DNA from: Bacteroidia bacterium
Lineage (GTDB): Bacteria > Bacteroidota > Bacteroidia > Bacteroidales > UBA932
Reading direction: 5' to 3'
Assembly: GCA_030529945.1 (NCBI GenBank)
Contig: JAUMVX010000021.1
Coordinates: 1 to 42,371, forward strand
Length of the DNA stretch: 42,371 nucleotides
Positions 3,186-42,371 of the stretch are shown in pieces. The position numbers were made by a program, and so were the translations under genes. The notes beneath the pieces were generated by a model. The model did no database searches and was not told where the DNA came from. It worked only from the letters and a program-made list of their open reading frames with translations. Positions within the stretch are counted from its first letter, which is position 1; each line of letters starts with the position of its first letter.

Positions 3186-3902
3186 TTAGAAGTTGATTCT
3201 TATCCCCAAGCCGGCTCCACCTTGGGCGTACACAACCGGTGTGGTGGAAACGTTGATAGCGTGGTTCTTCCCATAGTTGTCATAATACTCGTAACTACGT
3301 TTGAGCTTGGCCTTCGCGGGAGCTGTCAGTACGCAGCCAGATATTATTAAGGCACATCCCGAAGCGAGGAACGGCAGGATCTGATAACTATAATCATAAA
3401 CCCCATACTGTTCATAATACTCATCATAAGTCCAACCATCCACTGTATTCACTATAATACGTACGATTCCCACGGCACTTACGGCTGCTCCTGTACAGCA
3501 GACAACAGTGCTCAGGTTTTTTCTCCTTTTGTATTTCTGATAGTATCTCATAGAAGTGGTGTTGTCTCCCCAGAAATCGGTGGTTTTCACATCTCTCCAT
3601 GCTGCCTTTGCCGCCCTTTTATATTCCTCGAAAGACAGAGCAGGAGATTCTGAAGATTCTGCTCTTGACGTACTGGAAGTTCTCGGTACGGTTATTCTGG
3701 ATATTTCTGAACGTGAATAATAGAACATATCCCCGTTTGCCGTAGTGACGATAACATCGTCACCCTGTGTCATCACCGTTCCTTCGATGACAGTACCATT
3801 CTTCAAAGTCACCTTGCTGGTCTCTGAGGTGTTTTGAGCATTTGCGATTAACGCCGGGCAGACAACCGCCAGAATCAGAATAATTATTTTTTTCATCACC
3901 AC
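3186..3902 (-). CDS. Exported or membrane protein, first gene of the caspase operon
   Basis: A 238-residue protein. Either ATG may start it (3902, or 3896, which gives the cleaner signal peptide MKKIIILILAVVCPALIANAQ). After the signal, residues ~28-70 form a short beta-rich module (VTLKNGTVIEGTVMTQGDD...FYYSRSEISRI) of the kind seen in Bacteroidota proteins that start with a small SH3/Lsm-like fold. Two hydrophobic segments follow (STVVCCTGAAVSAVGIVRII and ILPFLASGCALIISGCVLTA), so the protein probably sits in the inner membrane. Function unknown. It is the first coding sequence after the structured leader at 3941-4148, with 41 bp to the next gene, so any attenuation there would control all four genes. 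Confidence 0.72.
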   Translation of the reverse strand: MVMKKIIILILAVVCPALIANAQNTSETSKVTLKNGTVIEGTVMTQGDDVIVTTANGDMFYYSRSEISRITVPRTSSTSRAESSESPALSFEEYKRAAKAAWRDVKTTDFWGDNTTSMRYYQKYKRRKNLSTVVCCTGAAVSAVGIVRIIVNTVDGWTYDEYYEQYGVYDYSYQILPFLASGCALIISGCVLTAPAKAKLKRSYEYYDNYGKNHAINVSTTPVVYAQGGAGLGIRINF

Positions 3903-3940
3903 TGTGTTTATTTTCGCAAACTCCTGACGAAATGAACAAT

Positions 3941-4014
3941 AAAAAAAAGTGTGGAGTTCTGTCTATTTGAATAGAGGCTCTGCAAAGCCCGCGAATGAAT
4001 AAACAACTCCACAC
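3941..4014 (-). terminator. Intrinsic terminator with long loop in the leader
   Basis: On the minus strand a perfect 10-bp stem (GTGTGGAGTT at 4014-4005, AACTCCACAC at 3958-3949) is followed directly by eight Ts (3948-3941). The 46-nt loop is itself folded. It ends the leader RNA or acts as a conditional terminator before the gene at 3902. Confidence 0.65.
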
Positions 4015-4148
4015 CAGCTATGGATAGAGGTGTGGAGACACCAATACCTGCAATGGTGATGAAGTGCTTCTTATCCCATTCGTTGAAATTTTGCAGATTT
4101 CTATTCAAGATAAGGCAACACCTTTATGTAATGCCGACTATTTGCCGA
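3941..4148 (-). ncRNA. Structured leader or small RNA upstream of the caspase operon
   Basis: From the inferred start (~4148) the minus-strand transcript would run ~208 nt into a T-tract at 3948-3941, about 40 nt before the first start codon. Visible structure: a GGTGT/ACACC hairpin (4029-4042); a long stem GTGTGGAGTT/AACTCCACAC (arms 4005-4014 and 3949-3958) enclosing 46 nt with smaller hairpins (CTATT/AATAG, GGCT/AGCC); and a possible long-range pair TTGAATAG/CTATTCAA. The CTCCACAC sequence occurs twice, once in the 4029-4042 hairpin and once as the terminator arm. The intervening GTGTGGAG can pair with either copy, which is the layout of an attenuator. I match it to no named RNA family. 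Confidence 0.5.
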
Positions 4149-4154
4149 CATTGG

Positions 4155-4185
4155 CAAAAGTAATGATTATTATTTGAACTTGCAA
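4155..4185 (-). promoter_or_regulatory. Bacteroidota-type promoter, minus strand
   Basis: Read on the minus strand: TTG (4185-4183), a 20-bp spacer, then TACTTTTG (4162-4155), which fits the TAnnTTTG -7 element. The predicted start near 4148 gives the structured leader of the caspase operon. Confidence 0.6.
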
Positions 4186-4378
4186 GATGTGGTTACACAT
4201 GAACCCAATGTCTCTTGACGATACTACTCCAAGGTGCTATCTTGACTCTTTCGCTCCGTCTTGTTGCCGCAATCAGCCGGAACAACTGAACATCCCGTCC
4301 ATTCCGTTCATCTTTCAGAAGGACGAATACCTTAAAGGCTTATGATTTGACCGAAACACTATGAATTAATCATTTATT
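4186..4378. other. Intergenic region without visible gene
   Basis: Together with the leader (3941-4148), this region separates the divergent caspase operon and the ATPase gene. I see no coding sequence, repeat or hairpin of note between the two promoters. Two of the four CATG sites in the window lie in or beside it (4198 and 4390). Confidence 0.5.
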
Positions 4379-4410
4379 TTTGATTTTTTCATGGTGTTTT
4401 GATAATTTTG
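4379..4410 (+). promoter_or_regulatory. Bacteroidota-type promoter for the ATPase gene
   Basis: TTTG (4379-4382), a 20-bp spacer, then TAATTTTG (4403-4410). The predicted start lies about 15 nt before the ATG at 4433, so the leader is very short. Confidence 0.7.
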
Positions 4411-4432
4411 CGTCTGAAAAGAAACGGTTCTT

Positions 4433-5740
4433 ATGAGACGCAGAATAGAACAGCAGCTGATAGACTGGAAATCATCTCCCGACAGGAAACCGCTCCTTCT
4501 TAACGGAGCACGGCAGGTCGGAAAGACATACATCCTGGAGAAGTGGTTCGGCAAGAACCATTTCAAAAATTGTATCCGTGTAAATCTGGCGCAGAATGCC
4601 TCGATGGTACAGACCTTTGAAGGCGACCTGAAGCCGCAGAGAATCATCGAGGCCATAGAAGCCACCTACGGGGTCAATATTAATCCGGACGAGACCCTGA
4701 TAATCTTGGACGAGATCCAAAAATCCGGACGTGCGCTGATGTCGCTGAAGATGTTCTGCGAAGAAGCTCCGCAGTACTATGTCGCCGCAGCCGGGAGTCT
4801 TCTGGGTGTGAAGATCAAGCAAGACGAGTCTATCTATCCTGTGGGAAAAGTCAAGAATCTGGACCTTTACCCAATGGATATGGAGGAATTCCTTTGGGCG
4901 ACCGGACGGGAAGAACTTGCAGATCAAATACGAGAGCATTTCCGCGATATGTCCCCGATGCCGGAAGCCAGCCATAAAGCGGCCCTGGAAGCCTATCGGC
5001 AATATCTCGTTGTCGGCGGAATGCCTGAAGCCGTCCTGAGATATTCCACTTCCGGGAGCATTATAGATGCCGCAGAGTCTCAAATGGATATTCTTAAAGA
5101 CTATATGGCGGACACCACCCAATATGCGACCGAAAGCGAGTCCGTAAAGATTCGCGCCTGCTACAACTCCATTCCCTCGCAGCTCTCAAAGGAAAACCTC
5201 AAGTTCCAGTACAAGGTGGTAAGAAAGGGAGGTACTGCCTCCATTTTCGGCGCGTCTCTCGACTGGCTCAAATATGCCGGCCTCATATATCAATGCGATA
5301 TGGTGGACTCGGCGTTCCTGCCGCTTAAGGCATATGTCGATCCGTCCGACTTCAAAATCTATATGAACGATGTCGGTCTGCTCACCCAGCATTCCGGAAT
5401 GCCGGCTCAACTTCTGCTTTCCGAGATTGAGGTGGACAATACTTTTATGGGCGGAATGACAGAGAATTATGTCGCACAGGCTCTCACCGCCGCCGGCCAT
5501 AAACTCTATTACTGGAAGAACGAGAATGTCGGTGAAGTGGATTTCGTGATTCAGGGCGATACAGGGGTCATTCCCGTGGAAGTCAAAAAAGCCATCCGGA
5601 CGAAATCCGTGAGTCTCAACAAGTTCCGACAATTGTACTCCTCCGCGATAGCCATAAGGTTCTCGAAGAAGAACTTCGGCCGGATCGATGATTTGCACTC
5701 CATTCCGCTCTACGCCATATTCTGTCTGAAGGCGAGGTAG
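4433..5740 (+). CDS. AAA ATPase with C-terminal DUF4143
   Basis: A 435-residue protein of the common AAA_14/DUF4143 family. Walker A is GARQVGKT (residues 25-32) and Walker B is LIILDE (Asp93-Glu94). The C-terminal DUF4143 part contains EVDFVIQ and, further on, PVEVKK (around residues 375-395), a pattern like the PD-(D/E)xK nuclease core (D...ExK). Family members are widespread in Bacteroidota, usually as isolated single genes; their function is unproven, with proposals ranging from NTP-dependent regulators to defence or toxin-like ATPases. Here it has its own promoter and no obvious partner. It lies at the edge between the AT-rich left segment and the GC-rich body of the window. Confidence 0.9.
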   Translation: MRRRIEQQLIDWKSSPDRKPLLLNGARQVGKTYILEKWFGKNHFKNCIRVNLAQNASMVQTFEGDLKPQRIIEAIEATYGVNINPDETLIILDEIQKSGRALMSLKMFCEEAPQYYVAAAGSLLGVKIKQDESIYPVGKVKNLDLYPMDMEEFLWATGREELADQIREHFRDMSPMPEASHKAALEAYRQYLVVGGMPEAVLRYSTSGSIIDAAESQMDILKDYMADTTQYATESESVKIRACYNSIPSQLSKENLKFQYKVVRKGGTASIFGASLDWLKYAGLIYQCDMVDSAFLPLKAYVDPSDFKIYMNDVGLLTQHSGMPAQLLLSEIEVDNTFMGGMTENYVAQALTAAGHKLYYWKNENVGEVDFVIQGDTGVIPVEVKKAIRTKSVSLNKFRQLYSSAIAIRFSKKNFGRIDDLHSIPLYAIFCLKAR

Positions 5741-5765
5741 CCTATTTTTATCGAGGCCGGGGATG

Positions 5766-5796
5766 TTGCAGGTGATATGGATATGGCTTATCTTTG
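5766..5796 (+). promoter_or_regulatory. Promoter upstream of the FKBP gene
   Basis: TTG (5766-5768), a 20-bp spacer, then TATCTTTG (5789-5796), matching TAnnTTTG. The leader to the ATG at 5863 is about 60 nt and contains a T-run (5833-5841). Confidence 0.6.
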
Positions 5797-5862
5797 CCGC
5801 CGTTCATCGGATGAGGATGAAATTACAGGTATGTTTTTTTTAGCTTCTAATTGATTTCAGAT

Positions 5863-6468
5863 ATGGACAAACTAAGTTATGCTCTCGGAATGAGCATTGC
5901 ACACAACCTCAGGGAGTCGGGTGTGAACTCCCTGGACTTCGAATCTTTCACTTCAGGCCTGCGCGACCTTATGTCCGGCGGACAGACCCGGCTTTCTTTC
6001 GACGAGGCGGGGAAGATTCTCGACAGATTCTTCACCGAGACTGAAGCCCGAATGAAAGAAGAACAGGGCGAGATGGCCGCCGCATTCAAGGAAGAGGGAG
6101 AGACCTGGCTCAAGGCCAATGCCGCTAAAGAAGGGGTGAAGACTCTCGCCAGCGGACTGCAGTACAAGGTGATAAAGGAAGGCAACGGAAAGAAGCCAGG
6201 CCCGAGGGACAAGGTGCGCTGCCACTATGAGGGCACGCTCGTAAACGGGATGAAGTTCGACAGTTCCTACGATCGCAATGAACCGGCCGTGTTCGGCGTG
6301 AACCAGGTGATCGCCGGCTGGACGGAGGCGCTGCAGCTTATGACCGAAGGCTCCGTATGGGAACTCTACATCCCTTATCAGCTCGCTTACGGCGAACAGG
6401 GTGCTCAGGGCGCGATTCCGCCCTGTGCGGCACTCATCTTCAAGGTCGAGCTCCTCGAAGTCCTGTAG
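5863..6468 (+). CDS. FKBP-type peptidyl-prolyl cis-trans isomerase
   Basis: About 201 residues from the ATG at 5863 (MDKLSYALGMSIAHNL); an in-frame TTG at 5851 would add four residues and is less likely. The N-terminal ~95 residues are the helical dimerisation part typical of FkpA/Mip-like proteins. The C-terminal ~100 residues form the FKBP domain (VRCHYEGTLVNGMKFDSS, then FGVNQVIAGWTEALQLM, then IPYQLAYGEQG). It catalyses proline isomerisation and usually acts as a folding chaperone. Unlike FkpA or Mip it has no signal peptide, so it should be cytoplasmic. It has its own promoter and a strong terminator, so it is monocistronic. Confidence 0.93.
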   Translation: MDKLSYALGMSIAHNLRESGVNSLDFESFTSGLRDLMSGGQTRLSFDEAGKILDRFFTETEARMKEEQGEMAAAFKEEGETWLKANAAKEGVKTLASGLQYKVIKEGNGKKPGPRDKVRCHYEGTLVNGMKFDSSYDRNEPAVFGVNQVIAGWTEALQLMTEGSVWELYIPYQLAYGEQGAQGAIPPCAALIFKVELLEVL

Positions 6469-6486
6469 TGATTCCCCACAAATAAG

Positions 6487-6514
6487 GATGACCCCGCAAG
6501 GGTCATCTTTTTTT
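6487..6514 (+). terminator. Intrinsic terminator after the FKBP gene
   Basis: A perfect 8-bp stem GATGACCC/GGGTCATC (6487-6494 and 6500-6507) with loop CGCAA is followed by seven Ts. It isolates the large biosynthetic operon from upstream transcription. Confidence 0.93.
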
Positions 6515-6558
6515 CGGGTTCCGAGCTGAGCGCAGCCCAAGGCGGACTGCCGCCGATT

Positions 6559-6589
6559 TTTGGGGAATACGGATTTTTTACTAATTTTG
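6559..6589 (+). promoter_or_regulatory. Promoter of the large biosynthetic operon
   Basis: TTTG (6559-6562), a 19-bp spacer, then TAATTTTG (6582-6589). It is placed between the FKBP terminator and fabG (ATG 6612) and is the only good promoter I see for the gene run up to 28855. Confidence 0.7.
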
Positions 6590-6611
6590 TCGATTAAATG
6601 ACAATTAGCCT

Positions 6612-7343
6612 ATGAGCCGTTATGCTTTGGTGACCGGAGGGTCCAGAGGAATAGGACGAGCGGTGTGCGTGGAGCTTGCACGCCGCGGTTATCCGGTGGT
6701 CATAAACTATAATTCGAATACCGCAGCAGCCGAGCAGACTGCCGCGCTCATCGCGGCGGAGGGCGGGACTTCCGAGCTCCTTCCTTTCGACGTCGCCGAC
6801 GCGAAGGCCGTCGAGGCGGCACTCGAAAAGTGGCAGGAAAAGCATCCTGATGACTATATCGCGGTGCTGATAAACAACGCCGGCATCCGTCACGACCAGC
6901 TCCTCGTCTTTATGCAGGACGGTGAATGGGAGTCGGTTCTGAACACCACCCTCGGCGGCTTCTTCCACGTCACCCGCCGGCTGCTGAAAGATATGATGAC
7001 ATCACGCTGGGGCCGCATCGTGAATATGGCCTCGCTCTCGGGCGTGAAGGGCTTGCCGGGCCAGGCCAATTATTCTGCTGCGAAGGCGGCCCTCATCGGG
7101 GCTATGAAAGCCCTCGCCCAGGAAGTCGCGCCGCGCGGCATAACCGTGAACGCCATAGCCCCCGGTTTCATCTCCACGGATATGACGAAGGACCTCGACG
7201 AGAAGGAACTCAAGAAGATGATTCCCGTCGGCCGCTTCGGCAGACCCGAAGAGGTGGCCGCACTCGTGGGCTTCCTCGTGTCAGAAGACGCAGCCTACAT
7301 CACCGGACAGACCATCTCGGTGAATGGCGGCTTATATACTTAA
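6612..7343 (+). CDS. fabG: 3-oxoacyl-ACP reductase (FabG-like SDR)
   Basis: A 243-residue short-chain dehydrogenase. The cofactor motif TGGSRGIG is at residues 8-15, NNAG at 88-91, and the catalytic Ser141, Tyr154 (NYSAAK) and Lys158 are all present. The PGFISTDM and GQTISVNGG motifs near the C-terminus are standard for FabG. It should reduce the 3-ketoacyl-ACP made in each round of chain extension, using NADPH. It is the first gene of the biosynthetic operon, in the position and role of the ketoreductase of aryl-polyene clusters. Housekeeping FabG activity cannot be excluded from sequence alone, but the context argues for a dedicated enzyme. Confidence 0.92.
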   Translation: MSRYALVTGGSRGIGRAVCVELARRGYPVVINYNSNTAAAEQTAALIAAEGGTSELLPFDVADAKAVEAALEKWQEKHPDDYIAVLINNAGIRHDQLLVFMQDGEWESVLNTTLGGFFHVTRRLLKDMMTSRWGRIVNMASLSGVKGLPGQANYSAAKAALIGAMKALAQEVAPRGITVNAIAPGFISTDMTKDLDEKELKKMIPVGRFGRPEEVAALVGFLVSEDAAYITGQTISVNGGLYT

Positions 7344-7375
7344 TACTAAATCATTTACTCTAAAACAGCTTCATT

Positions 7376-7897
7376 ATGAAAAAAATGATCCTCATCGTAG
7401 CGGCCATCTCTCTGCTTGCTACCGCAGCTTCCGCACAGAAGTCCATCCGCGTACCTCACGGCTACGCCGCGATGATAGAGCAGGAAAACACTTTCCATTT
7501 CAGCGGCTCCCAGACGTCCATCGCCCTGTCGATGACCCACGGAGCATATTATTCGGACAATGTTTATGTGGGTCTGGGCTTCGGACTCGAAGGGAATGAT
7601 GACTACACCATACTGCCTGTCTTCGCAGCCACCCGCTATATTTTCAACGGCCACGCCAAGGTCTCCCCTATGTTCACCGCGCGTCTGGGCTCCTATGTGG
7701 GAGACGATCTGGGCGCATATGGCGAGGCGGGATTCGGCCTGCGTTTCGCATCTCCAAGCAAATTCGCCTTCGCGCTTTCGCTGGTCGGCAAATACGTCTC
7801 CGGTCTGGAGTACTGTGATTACTCAAGCAGCTCCGTCTGCACCGTGAAGGAAAACAGTCTGTCCGGTGTCGGCATACGCTTCAGCATAGAATGGTAG
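7376..7897 (+). CDS. Small outer-membrane beta-barrel protein
   Basis: A 173-residue protein with a signal peptide (MKKMILIVAAISLLATAASAQ). The rest alternates aromatic and glycine-rich beta strands (VYVGLGFGLEG, YGEAGFGLRF, SGVGIRFSIEW) and ends in an aromatic residue, as outer-membrane barrels do. It probably forms an 8-stranded barrel of the OmpA/OmpX type. It sits between the ketoreductase and the first ketosynthase, whose start overlaps its stop (7891), so it belongs to the operon. It may help place or shield the lipid product in the outer membrane; that is inference. No close named family recognised. Confidence 0.75.
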   Translation: MKKMILIVAAISLLATAASAQKSIRVPHGYAAMIEQENTFHFSGSQTSIALSMTHGAYYSDNVYVGLGFGLEGNDDYTILPVFAATRYIFNGHAKVSPMFTARLGSYVGDDLGAYGEAGFGLRFASPSKFAFALSLVGKYVSGLEYCDYSSSSVCTVKENSLSGVGIRFSIEW

Positions 7898-9117
7898 AAA
7901 GAAGAGTAGCAGTTACGGGAATCGGCATCTGGGGATGCCTGGGCCAGAGTACCGATGCCGTGAGGGACTCGCTTTTCGCGGGTCGCTCCGGCATCGGCAT
8001 AGAAGAAATCCGGAAGGAGTACGGCTACCGTTCTCCGCTCACCGGCATAGTGCCGCGTCCGGTCCTGAAGGGACTGCTGGACCGCCGTCAGAGAGTGGGA
8101 ATGCCCGAAGAGGCTGAATATGCATATATGGCGTCGCGCGATGCGTTCGCCGCCGCGGGGATAGACGAAGACTATCTCTATGCGAATGAAGTGGGGGTCA
8201 TCTTCGGCAACGACTCCTCGTCGGTGCCGGTCATCGAGACCGCGCGTCTTATGGAACAGCACAAGGACTCGGCTATGCTGGGCTCCGGGCTGATTTTCCA
8301 GTCGATGAACTCCACCGTGAATATGAACATCAGCACCATCTTCCACCTGCGTGGCGTGAACTTCACCGTAAGCGCCGCCTGCGCAAGCGGGAGCCATTCC
8401 ATAGGCCTGGGTTATATGCTTATCCGCCAGGGACTCCAGGATATGGTCCTGTGTGGAGGAGCGCAGGAGGTTAACCATTACTCTATGGCATCCTTCGACG
8501 CCCTCTCGGCCTTTTCCACCAGAGTGGACGACCCTTCCGGGGCTTCCCGTCCTTTCGACCGGGACCGCGACGGACTCGTACCGAGCGGCGGAGCGGCCGC
8601 CCTCGTACTGGAAGACTATGAGCACGCGGTGAAGAGAGGAGCTCCCATCCTCGCCGAAATCTCCGGCTACGGCTTCTCCTCGAACGGGTCGGGAGGCATC
8701 TCCCAGCCTAATTCGGACGCGTCCTACCTTGCGATGAGCCGTGCCCTGAAAGATGCCGGAGTAACCGCTGATGATGTGGACTATATAAACGCCCACGCTA
8801 CATCCACCCCTCAGGGGGATATGTTCGAGGCCATCGCCCTCGCCAGGCTCTTCGAAGGCCGCAAAGCCTGGATCAGCTCCACCAAATCGATGACCGGCCA
8901 CGAATGCTGGATGGCGGGAGCGAGCGAGATAGTCTATTCCATCCTTATGCTGCGCGGTGACTTCATCGCGCCGAACATAAATTTCGAGAATCCGGACGAA
9001 CACTCGGCCCGGCTCCGCATAGCCGCGAAGACCAGAGAACAGAAACTTGACGTGATTCTATCCAATTCCTTCGGTTTCGGAGGAACCAACAGCGCACTCG
9101 TAATCAAAAGAATATAA
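7891..9117 (+). CDS. 3-oxoacyl-ACP synthase (FabF-type ketosynthase 1)
   Basis: A 408-residue complete ketosynthase. The active-site Cys164 lies in SAACASGS; the two histidines are His302 (NAHATSTPQGD) and His337 (KSMTGHE); the C-terminal FGFGGTNSALV is typical. It should condense malonyl-ACP with an acyl-ACP. In aryl-polyene pathways one stand-alone KS is thought to act in initiation or early extension while a KS-CLF pair builds the polyene, so this may be the initiating KS; that assignment is inferred. The start overlaps the preceding gene by 7 bp and the methyltransferase follows after 1 bp. Confidence 0.9.
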   Translation: MVERRVAVTGIGIWGCLGQSTDAVRDSLFAGRSGIGIEEIRKEYGYRSPLTGIVPRPVLKGLLDRRQRVGMPEEAEYAYMASRDAFAAAGIDEDYLYANEVGVIFGNDSSSVPVIETARLMEQHKDSAMLGSGLIFQSMNSTVNMNISTIFHLRGVNFTVSAACASGSHSIGLGYMLIRQGLQDMVLCGGAQEVNHYSMASFDALSAFSTRVDDPSGASRPFDRDRDGLVPSGGAAALVLEDYEHAVKRGAPILAEISGYGFSSNGSGGISQPNSDASYLAMSRALKDAGVTADDVDYINAHATSTPQGDMFEAIALARLFEGRKAWISSTKSMTGHECWMAGASEIVYSILMLRGDFIAPNINFENPDEHSARLRIAAKTREQKLDVILSNSFGFGGTNSALVIKRI

Positions 9118-9118
9118 G

Positions 9119-10228
9119 ATGTACCTGTCACCAGCCCTTGAAAAAACTTACACAAAAGAACAGCTCAACGCCCGTCAGGCCCAGAGACTCGCGGAATTCA
9201 TAGCCTGGGGTCCCGTCATCTTCCAGGCTTCCCGCCTGATGGTGAAATTCGGCATCCTCGACCTTCTCCGCGACAGCGACCAAGGTCTGACACAAGAAGA
9301 GATAGCCGAGGCTACAAAGCTCTCCGTCTATGCGGTGAAAGTCCTTACGGAGGCTTCCCTCTCCATCGGGACCGTACTGGTGGACAAGGACAGCGAGCGT
9401 TTCACCCTCTCGAAGACAGGCTGGTTCCTTCTGAACGATCCGGCCACGAGAGTGAACATAGACTTCAACCACGATGTGAACTACATCGGCTGGTTCGACC
9501 TCGAAGAGGCCCTGAAGACAGGCAAGCCTGCAGGCCTGAGGCACTTCGGCGACTGGCCCACGGTATATGAGGCACTTTCCCAGCTCCCGAAGCAGGTGCA
9601 GAAAAGCTGGTTCGGATTCGACCATTTCTACTCCGACCACTCTTTCGACGAGGCCCTCAAGATAGTCTTCGGCGAGCACAGCACCCGCACTCTTATGGAT
9701 GTGGGCGGCAACACCGGCCGCTGGGCCCTGCGCTGCGTGGATTATGACCCTCAGGTGAAAGTGACCATACTCGACCTGCCTCAGCAGTGCGAGATGATGC
9801 GCGAGCAGACGGCGGGAAAGAAGGGGGCGGACAGAATCGAGGGCTACGGCATCAATCTTCTGGACCCGCAGGCCCGCTTCCCTCAGGGGCAGCATCCTGA
9901 CGCCATCTGGATGAGCCAGTTCCTGGACTGTTTCTCCGAGGATGAAATCTACAGCATACTCAGCCGTGCCGTGGAAGCTATGGACGGCGGAACACGCCTC
10001 TACATAATGGAGACTTTCTGGGACCGCCAGAGATTCGAGCCGGCCACCCTCTGCCTCACGATGACGAGCCTCTATTTCACGGCCATCGCGAACGGGAACA
10101 GCAAGATGTATCACTCCGAGGCGATGGAGGCCCTGGTGAAGAAGGCCGGGATGGAAGTCGAGAAGATCTACGACGGCCTCGGCCAGGGGCACAGCATAAT
10201 GGTCTGCAAAATCAAGAAGCTGCAATAA
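9119..10228 (+). CDS. SAM-dependent methyltransferase (winged-helix O-methyltransferase type)
   Basis: A 369-residue protein. The N-terminal ~110 residues form a winged-helix dimerisation domain (LTQEEIAEATKLSVYAVKVL, GWFLLND). The catalytic class I fold starts with motif I DVGGNTG (194-200), followed by the acidic strand TILDLP (216-221). This is the architecture of plant-like O-methyltransferases and of methyltransferases in polyketide clusters. It may methylate the head group of the polyene, either at oxygen or at carbon; the substrate cannot be told from sequence. It is tightly packed between the first KS and the first ACP. Confidence 0.87.
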   Translation: MYLSPALEKTYTKEQLNARQAQRLAEFIAWGPVIFQASRLMVKFGILDLLRDSDQGLTQEEIAEATKLSVYAVKVLTEASLSIGTVLVDKDSERFTLSKTGWFLLNDPATRVNIDFNHDVNYIGWFDLEEALKTGKPAGLRHFGDWPTVYEALSQLPKQVQKSWFGFDHFYSDHSFDEALKIVFGEHSTRTLMDVGGNTGRWALRCVDYDPQVKVTILDLPQQCEMMREQTAGKKGADRIEGYGINLLDPQARFPQGQHPDAIWMSQFLDCFSEDEIYSILSRAVEAMDGGTRLYIMETFWDRQRFEPATLCLTMTSLYFTAIANGNSKMYHSEAMEALVKKAGMEVEKIYDGLGQGHSIMVCKIKKLQ

Positions 10229-10270
10229 TCGGGAACAGACTCAAAACAGCTTCAAAGTAACACATATAAT

Positions 10271-10516
10271 ATGGATAGAAAAGAGATAGAAAAGAAGGTC
10301 CGCGATTTTATGGTGGAGGACCTGGAGATCGACGAGGTGAAAATCACGGATGACGCGCTTCTGAAGAAAGACCTGGGAATAGACAGCCTCGACTTCATCG
10401 ACATCGTGGTCATCGTCGAGAAGAACTTCGGAGTGAAGATCAAGGCCGAGGAGATGGCCGGAGTCACCACTTTCAGCAAATTCTGCGACTATCTGGAGCA
10501 GAAGCTTTCGGCATAG
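10271..10516 (+). CDS. Acyl carrier protein 1
   Basis: An 81-residue acidic four-helix carrier protein with the phosphopantetheine site GIDSLDFIDIV (Ser39). It carries the growing chain as a thioester. It is the first of two ACPs in the operon. The pair differ in sequence (DSLDFID here, DSIDALEL in the second), which suggests separate roles, for example starter loading and extension. A phosphopantetheinyl transferase is needed but none is visible in the window. Confidence 0.93.
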   Translation: MDRKEIEKKVRDFMVEDLEIDEVKITDDALLKKDLGIDSLDFIDIVVIVEKNFGVKIKAEEMAGVTTFSKFCDYLEQKLSA

Positions 10517-10531
10517 AAGGGACCCCTGAGG

Positions 10532-11518
10532 ATGGAGGAGCATAAGGACAAGCGGCAGCCGGAGCGCCCGGAGGAGAGCGTCGCCGCGAAGCGCGAGCTT
10601 GCGGGGAGCGATACTCCGGAAGGCAAGCCTTCCGCTCAGGCACCCGCCTGGAGCGGCCGCAGCGACGGCCTTCCCTGGATGATACGTTCGCTTGTCGCGA
10701 TGATGAAAGTCGTGGACAGGCGCGTTTTCTACGGGGTGATGGCAGCGGTGGTGCCGTTCTATATGCTCTTCAGCCATAAAGGCTACCTCGCATCCTACCG
10801 CTTCTTCCGCCGCAGGCTCGGTTACTCTCATCTGAAATCCTTCTTCAGCGTCTATGCAAACCATTTCTGCTTCGGCAAGATCATCATAGACAGGTATGCG
10901 GCATACGCCGGGCGCAAGTTCACCCTGATCAATTCCGACCCCGACCATTTCGCGGAACTTATGGGCCGCGAAGGAGGCTTCGTACAGCTGAGTTCGCACG
11001 TGGGCAGCTTCGAGATGACGGGATACCTGCTGACCTCAAGCAAAAAGGTGAACGGGCTGGTCTATGCGGGCGAGACCGAAGTGATGATGAGATACCGCAG
11101 CTCCATTATGGGGCGGCACAATATCAGCCTCATCCGTATGGACGGCACGATGACGGCCCTTTTCGAGCTGAACGCGGCCCTGAACAGGGGAGAAGTGGTG
11201 AGTATGACTGGAGACAGGCTCTTCGGCTCGCAGAAAAGTGTCAAATGCAGGTTTTTCGGCAGCGACGCACTTTTTCCGGCGGGTCCGTTCTCGCTGGCCG
11301 CGCAGAAGGATGTCCCTCTGCTCGCGGTGTTCAATATGCGGGAGAGGGGAGGGGCCTACAAGGTTTACGAATTTCTGCTCGAAGCAGATGCCGCCCTGCC
11401 CGCCAGACGGAGGATAACGGCCCTTGCCCAGGAATTCGCCGACAGACTGGAGGAGACGGTGAGACTCTATCCTCACCAGTGGTTCAACTATTATGATTTT
11501 TGGGAGATTCCGCAATGA
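10532..11518 (+). CDS. LpxL/HtrB-like acyltransferase
   Basis: A 328-residue member of the lipid A biosynthesis lauroyl/myristoyl acyltransferase family. The HxxxxE catalytic motif is HVGSFE (His156, Glu161), followed further on by MTGDRLFGSQK and FPAGPFSLAAQ, the family's later conserved blocks. The first ~48 residues are charged and low in complexity (KDKRQPERPEES), so the true start may be a later ATG, for example the Met at residue 50. A hydrophobic segment (VFYGVMAAVVPFYMLF) would anchor it at the inner membrane. In aryl-polyene clusters such enzymes are thought to move the polyene chain onto a lipid or glycolipid. Confidence 0.86.
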   Translation: MEEHKDKRQPERPEESVAAKRELAGSDTPEGKPSAQAPAWSGRSDGLPWMIRSLVAMMKVVDRRVFYGVMAAVVPFYMLFSHKGYLASYRFFRRRLGYSHLKSFFSVYANHFCFGKIIIDRYAAYAGRKFTLINSDPDHFAELMGREGGFVQLSSHVGSFEMTGYLLTSSKKVNGLVYAGETEVMMRYRSSIMGRHNISLIRMDGTMTALFELNAALNRGEVVSMTGDRLFGSQKSVKCRFFGSDALFPAGPFSLAAQKDVPLLAVFNMRERGGAYKVYEFLLEADAALPARRRITALAQEFADRLEETVRLYPHQWFNYYDFWEIPQ

Positions 11519-34943: not shown

Positions 34944-36471
34944 TTTGAAAGACAGGGCGGAGGGCATCCGCAGAGTTGCCGCCGCTATGGGCAAAGAGGT
35001 CTATTCCGGTGAGACCTTAAAGAACACCGTTTTCCGCAAGGACCTTCAGAAATCCGACCATAAAGTAGTCACCCTCGAAGAGGCCATCGTCAGAAGCGGC
35101 CTGAAGGACGGGATGACCATTTCCTTCCACCACCATTTCCGCGGAGGCGACAAGGTTGTGAATATGGTAGTGGACAAGCTCGCGCAGATGGGCTTCAAGA
35201 ATCTGCATCTGGCCGCTTCCAGCCTCTCCGACGTGCACGCTCCACTCATCGAGCATATCAGAAACGGCGTCATAACGAAGATCTCCACTTCGGGACTTCG
35301 CGGCGAACTGGCCAAGGAGATATCGCACGGCCTTATGAAGGAGCCTGTAGTGTTCCGCAGCCACGGCGGCCGCGGCAGCGCCATCTCCACGGGAGACCTG
35401 CACATTGACGTGGCCTTCCTCGGAGCCTCTTCCAGCGACCCGGCGGGAAACGCCAGCGGCTACTCCCGCTCCGAACACGCCAAGTCCATCTGCGGCTCGC
35501 TCGGCTACGCCAAGCCTGACGCCCAGTATGCGGACAAGGTGGTCATCATCACGGACGACCTGGTGGACTACCCGAACACCCCGAACTCCATCTCAGAGCA
35601 CGATGTGGACTTCGTGGTCCTCGTGGACTCCGTGGGCGACTCGTCGAAGATTTCCTCCGGCGCGATCCGCGACACGAAGAACCCTCGCGACATACTCCTC
35701 GCGATGAGCGCCGCCGATGTCATCATTAACAGCGGCTACTTCAGGGAGGGCTTCTCCATCCAGACCGGCTCGGGCGGCGCATCCCTCGCGGCCGTAAAAT
35801 ACATCAGGGAGAAGATGATTGAAAAAGGCATCCACGCCAGCTTCGCTCTCGGCGGCATCACCGCCCATATGGTGAAGATGCACGAGGAAGGCCTCATCGA
35901 AAGGCTCATCGACGTGCAGTCCTTCGACCGCGTCGCCGCCGAGTCCATAAAGAACGACCCGTTCCACAAGGGCGTCTCGGCGAATGAATACGCTGCGGCG
36001 GACGAATCCGGTTCGGCCGTGCATTATCTGGACATAGTGATCCTTTCCGCCCTCGAGGTGGACGTGAACTTCAACGTGAACGTTCTCGTGGGTAGCGACG
36101 GTGTAATCCGCGGCGCCGTGGGAGGCCATCCTGACACTGCTGCGGATTCCGCCCTCTCCATCATAGTATGTCCGCTTCTGCGCGGGAGAATCCCTTGCAT
36201 CGTGGATGAAGTCACCACCCTCATCACTCCGGGTTCCACAGTCGATGTGGTCGTGACCGAGTACGGCATCGCCGTGAACCCGCGCCGGGGCGAAATAGCG
36301 GAAAGGCTACGCGCGGCCGGGATGAAGGTAGTGGACATCAATGCGCTTAAAGACCTGGCTCTCGAGCAGATAGGTACACCTGACCCTCTGCCGTTCGGCG
36401 ACAAGGTGGTCGGCGTGGTGATGAACCGCGAGGGCACGGTGCAGGATGTCATAATGAACATCGAAGACTAG
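34936..36471 (+). CDS. citF: Citrate lyase alpha subunit (acetyl-ACP:citrate ACP-transferase)
   Basis: About 511 residues from the ATG at 34936 (MSSLKDRAEGIRRVA), overlapping citE by 8 bp. The family signatures GMTISFHHHFRGGD, ATSTGDLHID-like AISTGDLHID, VGSDGVIRGAVGGHPDTA and GSTVDVVVTEYGIAVNPRR are present. It exchanges the acetyl group on the ACP for citrate. The size matches the usual ~510 residues. Confidence 0.95.
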   Translation: MSSLKDRAEGIRRVAAAMGKEVYSGETLKNTVFRKDLQKSDHKVVTLEEAIVRSGLKDGMTISFHHHFRGGDKVVNMVVDKLAQMGFKNLHLAASSLSDVHAPLIEHIRNGVITKISTSGLRGELAKEISHGLMKEPVVFRSHGGRGSAISTGDLHIDVAFLGASSSDPAGNASGYSRSEHAKSICGSLGYAKPDAQYADKVVIITDDLVDYPNTPNSISEHDVDFVVLVDSVGDSSKISSGAIRDTKNPRDILLAMSAADVIINSGYFREGFSIQTGSGGASLAAVKYIREKMIEKGIHASFALGGITAHMVKMHEEGLIERLIDVQSFDRVAAESIKNDPFHKGVSANEYAAADESGSAVHYLDIVILSALEVDVNFNVNVLVGSDGVIRGAVGGHPDTAADSALSIIVCPLLRGRIPCIVDEVTTLITPGSTVDVVVTEYGIAVNPRRGEIAERLRAAGMKVVDINALKDLALEQIGTPDPLPFGDKVVGVVMNREGTVQDVIMNIED

Positions 36472-36482
36472 GCGCTTTCCTT

Positions 36483-36986
36483 ATGGGGATCACGCTTGAA
36501 GAGCTGCTTGCGAGCCGCGAGGCGAGGGCGCTTCGCCAGAAGGATTATCTGCGGGATTATCCGGAAGGAACCCTCGTATGCCTCACCGTCATAATGCCGG
36601 GCAGCGTCAAGCGTGATTCCGCATCTCTGATAACGGCGCAGGCGGCCGTGACGGCTACAGTGTCCGCTTTCGGCCGCAGCCTCGTCACCCTCGAGCTGCG
36701 CGATCTGCCCACAGGATATGAAGCATATATGGTCACGTCTCTGCCTTGCCTGCAGGCCAAGGCGGAGACCTGCCGTATAGAGGACAGCCATCCTCTCGGG
36801 AGGCTGTTCGATCTGGACGTGATAGGCTCCGACGGCATCCCCGTATCCAGGACTGCGGTAGGCAAGGCCCCGAGGGGCTGCCTGCTCTGCCCGAATACGG
36901 CCGCGTATTGTATGAGAAACCGCACTCACACTCAGGAGGAACTTCTGAAGAGGATCGGCGAGATGATAGACGCGTATGTGCAGTGA
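36483..36986 (+). CDS. citX: Apo-citrate lyase phosphoribosyl-dephospho-CoA transferase
   Basis: A 167-residue protein with the CitX pattern: LLASREARALRQKDYL, LVCLTVIMPGSVKR, HPLGRLFDLDVIGSDG and CLLCPNTAAYCMRNRTHT. It attaches the prosthetic group made by CitG to CitD. The size is within the family range. It overlaps the next gene by 11 bp. Confidence 0.92.
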   Translation: MGITLEELLASREARALRQKDYLRDYPEGTLVCLTVIMPGSVKRDSASLITAQAAVTATVSAFGRSLVTLELRDLPTGYEAYMVTSLPCLQAKAETCRIEDSHPLGRLFDLDVIGSDGIPVSRTAVGKAPRGCLLCPNTAAYCMRNRTHTQEELLKRIGEMIDAYVQ

Positions 36987-38721
36987 CCGCTTCATAAATA
37001 CGGTACCGCTTTCCCTTTCTTCAGTGCGCCGCCGCGTGGAGGACTTCCTTGCGGAGAACGGTCTGCGCTATGCTCCGATGGACACTTACGTGACCGTCAG
37101 CGAGGATGAAGAAGGGGACAGGATTCTGGCCGGGGGCGGTCTGGAGGGCAATCTCATAAAATGCGTGGCCGTCAGCGGAGCGGCCCGTTCGGAGGGCCTC
37201 ACCGCGAAACTCGTCTCCGCTCTTCTCACCCTCGCCCGCGAAAGGGGCTATGATTCCGTCCGCCTTTTCACCAAGCCCGAGAACCGGAGCATCTTCGCCA
37301 GCCTGGGCTTCAGGCTTCTGGGCTCATCCGATGCCGCCATCCTTATGGAGACGGGTGCAGACGCCCTCAGGGACTATGAAAGATACCTGTCTTCACTCAA
37401 GGGCGAAGGCAGCGCCGGAGTCATAGTGATGAATGCCAACCCTTTCACCCGGGGACACCGCTATCTGGTGGAGCAGGCCGCCTCACAGGTGGACAGGCTC
37501 TATGTCATCGCCGTGAAGGAGGACCGCTCCCTTTTCCCTTCCGGGGAAAGGCTCGCGATGATCCGCAGCGGCTGTGCCGGCATAGATAACGTGACGGTCT
37601 GCAGGGGAAGCGATTATGCCGTCTCCGCAGCCACGTTCCCGACCTACTTCCTGAAAAAGGCGGATGATGCGACTCTCGCCTATATGGATCTCGATCTGGA
37701 CATATTCGCCGCTCATATAGCTCCCGCATTGGGCGCGAAGCGCCGCTTCGCGGGGAGCGAACCTCAGGACGCGCTCACGCGTCTGTACAATTCCCGGATG
37801 GCGTCTCTGCTGCCGGCTCGCGGGGTGGAGTTCATCGAAATCCCGAGGCTTGTGCAAGGAGGCGAAGCGGTGAGCGCGAGCAGGTTGAGAGCTGCATTGG
37901 ACGGCGGCGATTTCGCCGCGGCCGCGAGGATGGCTTACCCGACTACGATTCCGCATCTGCTTTCACATCTTGCTGAAAAGGCTCTGCGTGAGGAACTTGA
38001 CACTACTCCGAAGCCGGGTCTTGTGGACCGGGAGGACAGCGGTGCGCACTCCGATATGGACTACGCTCTGATGTCCCGGGGGATAGCGGCTCTGCGGCCG
38101 TTCTTCACGGAGCTGGCTTTGGAGGGGTGGAAGAAGGGATTGGACGCGGAAAGCGTCCGCAGCATAGGTATAAGTGCGGAAAAGGCTATGCTCGAAGCGA
38201 CCGGGGGAGTGAATACGCACAAGGGTGCGCTTTTCTGTATCGGTCTCGCGCTCAGCGCGGCGGCCTCTGTTCTGGGCTCGGGCGAAGTGCTCGGCGAGGA
38301 TAATCTGCGGCGGGGGATTTCGCTTCTGGCGAGCGGCATTCCGCAGGCGGAGGGGACGCACGGGGCGAATGTAAGACGCTCATACAGAGTGGGCGGCGCG
38401 CTTGACTGCGCTATGCGCGGCTACCCGGCTCTTTTCGGAGACTGGCTGCCCTATTACCGCTCTCTGCGGGGCGACTCTTATAGGAACCACCGCACGCTGC
38501 TGCGCATTATGTCCTCGCTGGACGACACGAATATCCTGCACAGGACCTCCGCGCAGACGCTCGCCCGGGTGAAGGAAGTTTCGGCGGAGCTTTGCGGGAA
38601 CTTCAGCGTCGGCGCTCTGCGGGAACTGAACAGAAAATTCATCTCGGAGAACATATCTCCCGGCGGAAGCGCCGATATGCTTTCACTGACTATATTTATT
38701 ACTGACATTATAAACCAATAA
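36976..38721 (+). CDS. citC-citG: Fused citrate lyase ligase (CitC) and triphosphoribosyl-dephospho-CoA synthase (CitG)
   Basis: A 581-residue fusion. Residues 1-~135 are the GNAT-like domain of CitC (LIKCVAVSGAARSEGLTAKL, LFTKPENRSIFASLGF). Residues ~140-320 are the nucleotidyltransferase with NANPFTRGHRYLVEQAA (the HxGH-type site) and ...SASRLRAALDGGDF. From ~325 onwards comes CitG, starting ALREELDTTPKPGLVDREDSG, with GVNTHKGALFCIGLA, EGTHGANVRR and DDTNILHRT. CitC acetylates the prosthetic group of CitD; CitG makes that group from dephospho-CoA and ATP. Both domains look complete, so this reads as a genuine bifunctional enzyme. No frameshift between the halves. Confidence 0.93.
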   Translation: MCSDRFINTVPLSLSSVRRRVEDFLAENGLRYAPMDTYVTVSEDEEGDRILAGGGLEGNLIKCVAVSGAARSEGLTAKLVSALLTLARERGYDSVRLFTKPENRSIFASLGFRLLGSSDAAILMETGADALRDYERYLSSLKGEGSAGVIVMNANPFTRGHRYLVEQAASQVDRLYVIAVKEDRSLFPSGERLAMIRSGCAGIDNVTVCRGSDYAVSAATFPTYFLKKADDATLAYMDLDLDIFAAHIAPALGAKRRFAGSEPQDALTRLYNSRMASLLPARGVEFIEIPRLVQGGEAVSASRLRAALDGGDFAAAARMAYPTTIPHLLSHLAEKALREELDTTPKPGLVDREDSGAHSDMDYALMSRGIAALRPFFTELALEGWKKGLDAESVRSIGISAEKAMLEATGGVNTHKGALFCIGLALSAAASVLGSGEVLGEDNLRRGISLLASGIPQAEGTHGANVRRSYRVGGALDCAMRGYPALFGDWLPYYRSLRGDSYRNHRTLLRIMSSLDDTNILHRTSAQTLARVKEVSAELCGNFSVGALRELNRKFISENISPGGSADMLSLTIFITDIINQ

Positions 38722-38733
38722 CATTATTTCTTT

Positions 38734-40980
38734 ATGGAAGAACTGATTCCACAAGGTGTTTATCTTAAAGACGGCAAGACGCTTGTCAAAGATGCCGCCG
38801 GAATGCCTTCTGCAGAAGAGGCCCGCGAAAATACCATCGCCTACAGGATCCTGCGTTCTCACGACGTGGACGGGTCCAGGGGCAAGAAGATGCGCATCCG
38901 CTTCGATGCGATGGTTTCCCACGACATTACCTATGTGGGCATTATCCAGACTGCGCGTGCAAGCGGTCTCGAAAAGTTCCCTCTGCCTTACGCGATGACG
39001 AACTGCCACAATTCGCTCTGCGCGGTGGGCGGAACCATCAATGAGGACGACCACGTGTTCGGTCTTTCCGCCGCGAAGAAATACGGCGGCATCTATGTCC
39101 CTGCAAACCAGGCGGTCATCCATCAGTACACCCGTGAGGCCATCGCCGAGTGCGGCAATATGGTTCTCGGCTCCGACAGCCACACGCGTTACGGCTCTCT
39201 CGGCTGTATGGGCGTCGGCGAAGGCGGCGGCGAGCTTGTGAAGCAGCTCCTGAAGAACACCTGGGACATCAACGCCCCGGAAGTGGTTCTGGTATGGCTC
39301 GAAGGCAAGCCTAAGAAGGGTATCGGCCCGCACGATGTGGCCATCTCCCTCGTGAAGGCGGTGTTCGAGAACGGCTTCGTGAAGAACAAGGTGCTCGAAT
39401 TCGCGGGTCCCGGCGTGGAGAACCTCTCCATCGACTTCCGCAACGGCATCGACGTGATGACCACCGAGACCACCTGTCTGAGCTCCATCTGGATCACCGA
39501 CGGGAAGGTGGAGGAATACTACAGGATGCACGGCCGTCCTCAGGCATACCGCAAGCTCGCTCCGGGCGAGGTCGCATACTACGACAGTATGATCAGAATC
39601 GACCTCTCGCAGCAGGAGGCTATGATCGCCCTGCCGTTCCATCCTTCGAACGCATACACCATCCACGAGTTCCAGAAGAACCCGAAGGCCATCCTCGAGG
39701 CTGTCGAGGCGGACGCGCGCAAGCGTTTCGGAGACAAGATTTCCATCGACCTCGTAGGCAAGCTCCGTGACGGAAAGGCCGTGGCGGACCAGGCGCTCAT
39801 CGCCGGCTGCTCGGGCGGAACCTACGAGAACCTCAGCGAGGCCGCCGCCATCCTGAAGGGCAAGACCATAGGCAACGACTACTTCACGATGTCCGCGTAC
39901 CCGCAGTCCACTCCGGTATATCTCGCGACCACGCGCAACCACATCGCCGAGGAGCTTCTCGAGGCGGGTGTAGTCATCAAGCCGGCGTTCTGCGGACCTT
40001 GCTTCGGAGCCGGCGACGTGCCGGCCAATAACGGCCTGTCCATCCGCCACACCACCCGCAACTTCCCGAACCGCGAGGGTTCCAAGCCGGGTCAGGGCCA
40101 GATTTCCCTCGTCTGCCTGATGGACGCGCGCTCCATTGCCGCCACGGCGGCCAATGGCGGAGTCATCACCGCAGCCACGGATATCGAGTACAACGACACC
40201 CACGCTCCGTATTCTTTCGACGACCGTATCTACAAGAGCCGCGTTTACTACGGCTACGGCCACGCCGACCCTTCAGTGGAGCTCCGTTACGGCCCGAACA
40301 TCAAGGACTGGCCTAAGATGTATCCTATGCAGGACAATATGCTCCTCGAGCTGGCTGCGGTCATCCACGACCCTGTCACCACCACCGACGAGCTCATCCC
40401 GTCCGGCGAGACATCCAGCTACCGTTCGAACCCTATCAAGCTCTCCGAGTTCACGCTTTCGCGCCGGGTTCCGGAGTATGTGGGCATCTGCAAGAGAATC
40501 CAGCAGGAAGACCGCGAGCGCCGCGAGGGTAAAGTTCCCGCCGATGTGGCAGAGGCTCTCGCCAAGGTCGGGGCCCCGGCTTCCGACACTTCGTTCGGTT
40601 CCTGCGTGTTCGCGAACAAGCCGGGCGACGGCTCCGCTCGCGAGCAGGCCGCTTCCTGCCAGAAGGTTCTGGGCGGCGACGCCAACATCTGCTACGAGTA
40701 TGCGACGAAGCGCTACCGCAGCAACTGCATCAACTGGGGCATAGTTCCGTTCACGATTGCACCGGAAACAGCCTTCGATTACAAGCCGGGCGACTTCGTG
40801 TTCATCAAGGGCATCCGTGAGGCCATCCTCTCCGGTAAGGAGGAGATCGACGCCAAGGTCATCTGCGCCGAGGGTCTGAAGGACATACATCTGTACTTCC
40901 GGAACCTGACCGCCGATGAGCGCGAGATTCTTGCGGACGGCTGCCTTATGAACTATTACGCAGCACAGAAGGGCAAATAA
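38734..40980 (+). CDS. acn: Aconitate hydratase
   Basis: A 748-residue aconitase of the length usual in Bacteroidota. Visible are GSDSHTRYGSLGCMGVGEGG, the three [4Fe-4S] cysteines (one in GCSGGTYEN, two in FCGPCFGAGD), and the C-terminal swivel domain with FGSCVFAN-, YEYATKRYRSNCINWG- and GDFVFIKG-type motifs. It interconverts citrate and isocitrate. It starts 12 bp after citCG without a terminator and is followed by icd after 24 bp, so all are probably one transcript. A 526-codon antisense frame overlaps it and is taken as spurious. Confidence 0.96.
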   Translation: MEELIPQGVYLKDGKTLVKDAAGMPSAEEARENTIAYRILRSHDVDGSRGKKMRIRFDAMVSHDITYVGIIQTARASGLEKFPLPYAMTNCHNSLCAVGGTINEDDHVFGLSAAKKYGGIYVPANQAVIHQYTREAIAECGNMVLGSDSHTRYGSLGCMGVGEGGGELVKQLLKNTWDINAPEVVLVWLEGKPKKGIGPHDVAISLVKAVFENGFVKNKVLEFAGPGVENLSIDFRNGIDVMTTETTCLSSIWITDGKVEEYYRMHGRPQAYRKLAPGEVAYYDSMIRIDLSQQEAMIALPFHPSNAYTIHEFQKNPKAILEAVEADARKRFGDKISIDLVGKLRDGKAVADQALIAGCSGGTYENLSEAAAILKGKTIGNDYFTMSAYPQSTPVYLATTRNHIAEELLEAGVVIKPAFCGPCFGAGDVPANNGLSIRHTTRNFPNREGSKPGQGQISLVCLMDARSIAATAANGGVITAATDIEYNDTHAPYSFDDRIYKSRVYYGYGHADPSVELRYGPNIKDWPKMYPMQDNMLLELAAVIHDPVTTTDELIPSGETSSYRSNPIKLSEFTLSRRVPEYVGICKRIQQEDRERREGKVPADVAEALAKVGAPASDTSFGSCVFANKPGDGSAREQAASCQKVLGGDANICYEYATKRYRSNCINWGIVPFTIAPETAFDYKPGDFVFIKGIREAILSGKEEIDAKVICAEGLKDIHLYFRNLTADEREILADGCLMNYYAAQKGK

Positions 40981-41004
40981 TAACATTTTATAAACCGATT
41001 TTTT

Positions 41005-42213
41005 ATGAAAAAGATTCAGATGATCACCCCTATCGTGGAGATGGACGGTGACGAGATGACAAGAATCCTGTGGAAGATGATAAAGGACGAGCTTATCCTG
41101 CCTTTCGTCGACCTCAAGACCGAATACTACGATCTGGGCCTCGTGAACCGCGACAATACCGGCGATCAGGTTACCATAGATTCCGCGAATGCCGCGAAGA
41201 AGTACGGAGTGGCCGTGAAGTGCGCCACCATCACACCTAACGCCAAGCGTATGACGGAGTACAAGCTGCACCAGATGTGGAAGAGCCCGAACGGGACCAT
41301 CCGTTCGATGATGGACGGAACCGTGTTCCGCACTCCTATCACCATCCCTTCCATACATCCTGCGGTGAAGTTCTGGAAGAAACCTATCACCATCGCCCGT
41401 CACGCCTATGGCGACGTTTACAAGAGCATCGACATCAAGGTGGATGAACCGGGTGTGGCCAAGCTCATCTTCGAAGGCGAGAGCGGAAAGAGGGAGGAGC
41501 AGGTGGTACATACCTTCAAGGGCCCGGGCGTCCTCCAGGGTATGCACAACACTGACGCTTCCATACGTTCCTTCGCGCACGCCTGCTTCAAGTATGCTCT
41601 CGACCTCAAGCAGAGCATCTGGTTCGCCACGAAGGATACCATCTCGAAGAAGTACGACGGACGTTTCCGCGAGATTTTCGAAGAGGTCTTCGAAGAGTAC
41701 AAGGACCGTTTCGCAGCCGCCGGCATAGAGTATTTCTATACTCTGATCGACGATGCGGTAGCCCGCGTTATGCGCAGCGAAGGCGGTTTCATCTGGGCCT
41801 GCAAGAACTATGACGGCGACGTGATGAGCGATATGGTCTCCACCGCTTTCGGTTCACTGGCGATGATGACTTCAGTGCTCGTAAGTCCGGACGGCAAGTA
41901 TGAGTACGAGGCCGCCCACGGCACCGTGACACGCCATTACTACAAGTATCTGGCGGGCGAGGAGACTTCCACGAACCCTATCGCGACGATTTTCGCCTGG
42001 AGCGGAGCTTTCCGCAAGAGGGGAGAGATGGACTCCATCCCTGAGCTTATGAATTATGCCGACCAGCTTGAGGCGGCCTGCTTCGACACTCTGAACGAGG
42101 GCATCGTCACCAAGGACCTCGCGAATCTGATGGAGGGAGTCACCCCTGTGGTGAAGAATTCAGCAGATTTCATCGCCGCGATCCGCAGCCGTCTCGAAAA
42201 GAGACTCTCATAA
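41005..42213 (+). CDS. icd: NADP-dependent isocitrate dehydrogenase
   Basis: A 402-residue protein of the eukaryotic-type (homodimeric, type II) NADP isocitrate dehydrogenases: VEMDGDEMTRILWKMIKDEL, PNGTIRSMMDGTVFRTPI, KYDGRFREIFEE, YTLIDDAVARVMRSEGGF, YDGDVMSDMVSTAFGSLAMM and AAHGTVTRHYYKYLAGEETS. It converts isocitrate to 2-oxoglutarate with release of CO2, supplying NADPH and the carbon skeleton of glutamate. It is the last gene of the citrate operon. Confidence 0.97.
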   Translation: MKKIQMITPIVEMDGDEMTRILWKMIKDELILPFVDLKTEYYDLGLVNRDNTGDQVTIDSANAAKKYGVAVKCATITPNAKRMTEYKLHQMWKSPNGTIRSMMDGTVFRTPITIPSIHPAVKFWKKPITIARHAYGDVYKSIDIKVDEPGVAKLIFEGESGKREEQVVHTFKGPGVLQGMHNTDASIRSFAHACFKYALDLKQSIWFATKDTISKKYDGRFREIFEEVFEEYKDRFAAAGIEYFYTLIDDAVARVMRSEGGFIWACKNYDGDVMSDMVSTAFGSLAMMTSVLVSPDGKYEYEAAHGTVTRHYYKYLAGEETSTNPIATIFAWSGAFRKRGEMDSIPELMNYADQLEAACFDTLNEGIVTKDLANLMEGVTPVVKNSADFIAAIRSRLEKRLS

Positions 42214-42228
42214 GAGGTTTTATCGATT

Positions 42229-42268
42229 GAGAGGGTGACTGCAGGTCTTGACTTGCAGTCACTCTCTC
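42229..42268. terminator. Long hairpin after icd, probable terminator
   Basis: A 15-bp stem with one G-T pair (arms 42229-42243 and 42254-42268), including GTGACTGCA/TGCAGTCAC, with a 10-nt loop. The T-tract after it is weak (TCTCTT), so it may act as a bidirectional or factor-assisted terminator, or protect the 3' end of the message. Confidence 0.7.
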
Positions 42269-42292
42269 TCTTATGGCGACCTTTATGACAGA

Positions 42293-42366
42293 GGATGGCC
42301 GCTGCAGGCTATCCTTTATACGTTTAACCCACATTGCAGCGGAAGCCCCCTCCGATTTTTTTTCGC
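42293..42366 (+). other. Alternative hairpins followed by a T-tract at the window edge
   Basis: GGATGGCC/GGCTATCC (42293-42300 and 42307-42314) competes with CCGCTGCA/TGCAGCGG (42299-42306 and 42335-42342). A small CGGA/TCCG hairpin (42340-42343 and 42351-42354) then precedes about eight Ts. This could be a terminator or the start of an attenuated leader for a gene beyond the window; the edge prevents a decision. Confidence 0.35.
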
Positions 42367-42371
42367 GTCCC

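Follow-up and report, generated by a model that had tools for sequence, protein, structure and literature searches.

The window, a stretch of 42,371 bases, is one contig (C62) of a draft assembly of 2,279,705 bases in 93 contigs that is 95.7% complete. An AT-rich stretch at its start is followed by almost wholly coding DNA with genes for an ATPase, a fatty-acid-type biosynthesis cluster, CorA, citrate lyase, aconitase and isocitrate dehydrogenase (Table 1). CATG is present 4 times in the window against 197.8 expected from a maximal-order Markov model (observed/expected 0.020; Poisson lower tail ~10^-78), the lowest ratio of all 256 tetranucleotides. The sequence-only reading that preceded this analysis had noticed the near-absence of CATG, named four copies and proposed a Markov-corrected count; exact counting found all four in place and no further copy, giving 4 sites and not tens. 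It had also put three of them in AT-rich accessory DNA. Their position in the first 4432 bases is correct, but CATG is depleted in that part too. GATC, described there as freely present, is found 85 times against 191.5 expected. The words next lowest to CATG in the window are CTAG (1 versus 44.4), TTAG (0.28), CTAA (0.36) and GATC (0.44).

Table 1. Positions of CATG sites, composition segments and genes in the window and at the other loci discussed in the text.
Feature	Sequence	Position	Strand	Description	Basis
CATG site 1	window	3598..3601		AT-rich first 4.4 kb	exact count, composition
CATG site 2	window	4198..4201		AT-rich first 4.4 kb	exact count, composition
CATG site 3	window	4390..4393		AT-rich first 4.4 kb	exact count, composition
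CATG site 4	window	17233..17236		within ORF 16756-17787, LolA-like by Pfam	exact count
AT-rich stretch	window	1..4432		GC 0.40-0.50; CATG 3 versus 12.7 expected
Remainder of window	window	4433..42371		almost all coding; CATG 1 versus 185.8 expected
Aconitase-family gene	window	38734..40980	+	0 CATG; used for comparison with relatives
D12-class methyltransferase match	C26	13003-13857			PF02086, E 1.9e-49
ICEA match	C26	13875-14204			PF05315, E 1.3e-52
CRISPR-like array	C73 (L235)	1-1550
RE2, first example	L088	2309-3442
RE2, second example	L151	4865-5995

The depletion of CATG is written at synonymous positions. Thirty-five open reading frames of the window (36,642 bases) contain one CATG, against a mean of 154.8 and a minimum of 135 in 200 within-gene shuffles of synonymous codons. 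None of the 351 codons that precede an internal ATG in these frames ends in C, which is the commonest third base overall (4941 of 12,179 codons), and histidine before a codon starting with G is written CAC 76 times and CAT once; both habits of codon choice had been picked out correctly by eye. The aconitase-family gene allowed a comparison with relatives, 26 of 29 of which have 5 to 18 copies of CATG in it, the other three (G083, G047 and G020) having 1, 1 and 2, respectively. We examined 18 aligned sites of this gene where CATG is found in 30% or more of the CATG-normal relatives. Our genome retains the word at none of them, 14 of the changes being synonymous, while four CATG-normal relatives retain it at 7-10 of 15-17 positions. 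The replacements in our genome are 6 CACG, 6 TATG, 5 GATG and 1 CAAG.

Beyond the window, CATG is likewise far below its Markov expectation: 32 copies were counted against 1021 expected in 257,439 bases from 16 stretches of nine other contigs, which were chosen through methyltransferase searches and are not a random sample of the genome. Together with the window this makes 36 versus 1218 in 299,810 bases, or 13% of the genome (observed/expected 0.03). Both this genome-wide count and the codon shuffles place the depletion beyond what base and codon composition give. The 36 residual sites lie at a lower local GC than the background (median 0.534 versus 0.567, p=0.0018), which bears out the expectation that remaining sites would be found in AT-rich DNA. 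The context GCATGA/TCATGC holds 14 of these 36 sites, compared with about 13% in CATG-normal relatives. CTAG, whose depletion had gone unmentioned, is found 15 times against 307 in the same 257,439 bases and 16 times against 354 in all 299,810. Among the 45 genomes of the genus with a sufficient expectation, 36 have CTAG at or below 0.30. Since CTAG is low whatever the CATG status, we regard it as a separate phenomenon, genus-wide and known generally; in the sections of Rusinov et al. (2015; PMC4687349) drawn on here, CTAG is reported as under-represented in most genomes whatever their systems.

A search of the assembly for a CATG nuclease or methyltransferase, as the sequence-only reading had suggested, identified two genes side by side on contig C26. 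One encodes the only D12-class methyltransferase match in the genome, a protein of 334 residues with a DPPY motif, whose start overlaps the stop of the other gene, an ICEA-family nuclease directly before it. The ICEA family includes Helicobacter pylori IceA1, an NlaIII-like gene adjoining the methylase gene hpyIM; in the available portions of two reports, IceA1 is named as a CATG-recognising endonuclease and hpyIM as a CATG-specific methylase (PMC13340068, PMC2749054). The C26 pair resembles NlaIII and IceA1-HpyIM in the adjacency of the two genes and in their families. From these families and from the depletion itself, we infer that the C26 enzymes recognise CATG. In relatives, the gene orders include MT1-ICEA-D12, MT1-ICEA-RE2-D12 and MT1-RE2-D12, and the operon differs from IceA1-HpyIM by a second methyltransferase (MT1) and often by RE2; in Campylobacter jejuni, iceA1 and hpyIM are clustered with one more methylase, an orphan, according to the parts of PMC4658567 and PMC4687069 used here. 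The closest named relatives of the C26 methyltransferase come from Bacteroidales metagenome bins, and the genus is one of the Bacteroidales. No close phage source was found for it (11 phage records match, the best at 45% identity), and one plasmid record matches ICEA as a distant relative at 32%. Neither ICEA nor D12 had a relative of solved structure at the limits used.

The nuclease gene on C26 looks interrupted, and no complete copy was found in the assembly. The match spans only positions 113-218 of the ICEA profile, and the contig ends 42 bases past it. In an alignment with ten relatives, the frame matches only from D115 of the DHKDGRK motif onward, and the residues before D115 do not match. 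The 45 non-matching bases belong to a repeat that six contigs of the assembly carry at their start or end, exact over a 20-base pattern in C6, C26 and C73 and with two differences in C39, C57 and C93; each copy closes with identical letters and then turns to differing DNA. An ICEA search of the whole assembly did not find the front half of the nuclease, and neither MT1 nor RE2 was found in the assembly. The front half and MT1 may be deleted or unbinned. We consider it likely that a multicopy mobile element has inserted in the nuclease gene, the repeat being its end, and that mainly the methyltransferase remains. Since the nuclease gene is interrupted in the assembly, the system may now be a remnant. 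Such a state would be like that of H. pylori iceA1, most genes of which are reported to have disabling mutations in the part of PMC13340068 consulted, in that the nuclease is broken while the methyltransferase is kept; it is unlike IceA1-HpyIM in that the break is at a multicopy repeat.

On a less probable reading, to which we give about one chance in four, most cells still have an intact and active system; the contig-end break would then come from a strain variant in the minority or from the assembly, and the missing half would sit in unbinned DNA. The remaining ICEA frame and the D12 frame are both open, repeats do break draft assemblies, and CATG in our genome (0.03) is as low as in the relatives with a complete ICEA gene (0.01 and 0.07), all of which suits an intact system. 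Against it, the bases before the break do not code for ICEA and recur at the ends of five other contigs, and the whole-assembly search for the front half came back empty. The repeat end gave a single plasmid match at chance level and had no further copy in the other loci compared. On C73, a CRISPR-like array adjoins the repeat end that interrupts the nuclease gene; 8 copies of its repeat GTCGCACCCCGTGTGGGTGCGTGGATTGAAAC are listed, mostly 65-67 apart.

We then compared CATG across the genus. In one draw of 200 genomes, our own included and the same draw being taken for all four tallies, ICEA was present in 3, a D12 match in 12 (5 of them at 65% identity or more), an MT1 match in 6 (3 of them close) and RE2 in 2, one of which is a remnant; in G169, a short piece of RE2 is left, placed between ICEA and D12. 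CATG was measured in 98 genus genomes on stretches chosen by known contig places or as first contigs, not at random; three of the values (G060, G090 and G037) were obtained from 4-5 kb and another four from less than 10 kb, and two stretches that read only N (L069 and L070) were left out. All four operon genomes among the 98 are strongly depleted, with observed/expected values of 0.01 in G169, 0.03 in our genome (G000), 0.07 in G106 and 0.07 in G137. G137 has both methyltransferases, with RE2 (377 residues) in place of ICEA. G103 has a D12 gene flanked by unrelated genes and by no nuclease, and its CATG is at 0.42. The other 93 genomes have a median of 0.83, and 78 of them exceed 0.30. A rank test of carriers versus others gave p 7.8e-6, treating these related genomes as independent and counting G137 as a carrier without ICEA.

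With a probability of roughly 0.8, we favour restriction-site avoidance as the reason why CATG is nearly absent, this being the imprint left by an NlaIII/IceA-type type II system long carried by the lineage. In this mechanism, a restriction-modification system of that type would have been resident for a long time; a CATG that is briefly unmethylated could be cut, such self-cutting would act as a selective force, variants rid of CATG by synonymous change would be favoured, and the loss would accumulate as an imprint. The nuclease gene would then have been interrupted by the multicopy element, leaving mainly the methyltransferase. The phenomenon is of a known kind, and our genome is a strong and informative example of it. 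The sequence-only reading had proposed avoidance driven by a resident or frequently met NlaIII-like system. The adjacent ICEA and D12 genes and the depletion in all four operon genomes support a resident system; the interruption of the nuclease gene and the avoidance in 15 of 93 genomes without a matching system call for changes to that proposal.

These 15 genomes (G001, G020, G022, G030, G047, G055, G083, G130, G132, G134, G142, G159, G188, G193 and G196) have no match to ICEA, D12, MT1 or RE2 and have CATG at 0.04-0.29. It follows that a resident system of the ICEA/D12 family does not account for all avoidance in the genus, and that loss of systems, incompleteness of the drafts or a system that goes unrecognised must be frequent. 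Conceivably, though we think it improbable, most of the avoidance is due to a different, unrecognised CATG-specific nuclease or defence system that many members of the genus have, and the ICEA/D12 operon is one source only. Several of the 15 genomes are as low as 0.04-0.07, and a search with the Pfam D12 model found no D12-family gene in G047, G020 or G083, which are 95, 80 and 99% complete. Among palindromes, moreover, only CTAG is as often depleted as CATG (GATC in 6 of 97 genomes, three others in 1 each). However, our genome does carry ICEA/D12 genes, many genomes among the 15 are unfinished drafts, with a completeness of 74-99%, and traces of lost systems are documented: in the cited part of PMC4687349, they were seen in 18.4% of 5162 cases in which the system is encoded only in a different species of the same genus. 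In the aconitase tree, G083, G020 and G093 form a supported clade with CATG at 0.18, 0.17 and 0.70, respectively, as decay after the loss of an old system would give. G047 (0.06) is sister to G023 (0.71) in the same tree; its low value is compatible with the recent loss of a system, a gap in the assembly or a system that is unrecognised. A PF01555-type gene of G047 stands between unrelated genes. Avoidance of a longer site containing CATG was rejected for the 15 genomes pooled (188 sites), as nine of the ten NCATGN classes are at 0.65-1.39 of their usual share, with a single site in the remaining class, ACATGT.

Beyond the genus, the best 80 loci with a D12 gene were examined across phyla, with CATG measured over 7-13 kb each. 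An ICEA relative with an identity of 50% or more is present at 22 of them; CATG is at 0.20 or below at 10 of the 22 and above 0.30 at the other 12. The 22 include 10 Bacteroidales loci, 9 of which are at 0.13 or below and one (L149) at 0.57; the link between ICEA and CATG beyond Bacteroidales is loose. RE2 recurs in operons of Bacteroidota, Campylobacterales, Melioribacteraceae and Treponema loci. Neither Pfam (at E 0.01) nor PADLOC (at 0.001) gave a match for it. Its front resembles the UPF0310 family (NCBIfam PRK00809.1, E 5.6e-5), which we take to be EVE-like, and its only match of solved structure is a weak one to the UPF0310 protein PH1033 (PDB 1wmm, E 0.038). Nine RE2 relatives have in common an invariant aspartate and a PIELK stretch (D...IELK), presumably a PD-(D/E)XK nuclease core. 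A survey of EVE domains (PMC7641849) makes no mention of NlaIII, IceA, Dam methylase, type II restriction or D12. G137 is poor in CATG although it has RE2 and lacks ICEA, which suggests either that CATG is restricted by RE2 as well or that the loss of ICEA is recent. A tentative extension, which we hold to be possible and somewhat doubtful, is that CATG pressure is recurrent in the genus, with the NlaIII family explaining part of it and a second, undescribed type of CATG nuclease (e.g. RE2, which joins or replaces ICEA in the operon) plus at least one further kind, in the genomes that lack any match, scrubbing genomes repeatedly.

A mutational or repair bias that removes CATG without restriction, the alternative that the sequence-only reading had offered, found no support and is very improbable: CTAG is depleted genus-wide and such depletion is partly attributed to causes of this sort (PMC4687349, in the text cited), but most relatives are near expectation (median 0.83; 190 observed versus 187 in G016), low CATG values are found on several distinct branches of the tree, and the mixed replacements at the 18 aconitase sites, together with the near-expectation relatives, led us to reject a single-mutation bias.

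The sections of Rusinov et al. (2015; PMC4687349) relied on here report site avoidance in about half of the cases with orthodox type II systems, and more of it with longer residence of the system. The CATG depletion is like that avoidance in being tied to a type II system and in persisting in relatives without the system. The 16% of genomes depleted without a match here (15/93) is close to the 18.4% of that study, the two being measured differently. Unlike what those sections describe, the depletion is very strong (0.03) and several apparent stages are found within one genus, which looks like a natural experiment on the speed at which a restriction imprint is written and erased: operon genomes at 0.01-0.07, a methyltransferase-only genome at 0.42 and three sister species without a system at 0.17, 0.18 and 0.70 stand side by side, and our own genome has an apparently interrupted nuclease gene, yet is still fully scrubbed. 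If this is true, word depletion could reveal which defence genes a genome had in the past. The 15 scrubbed genomes without a match point to frequent loss or to an unrecognised CATG enzyme.

Other methyltransferases and depleted words were seen along the way. On our contig C16 (L010), a PF01555 methyltransferase gene adjoins a nuclease gene of the DpnII family (PF04556, E 7.7e-100), and GATC is mildly depleted in our genome, at about 0.43. About ten cytosine-5 methyltransferase genes (11 PF00145 matches) are located on contigs C34, C50, C76, C46, C49, C90 and C4, forming adjacent pairs on C50 and C76, and GTCGAC is low in our contigs (15 versus 86.9). In the relative G138 (L126 and L127), AGCT is almost absent, with 2 copies against 85 in 40 kb, and this is probably another restriction imprint.
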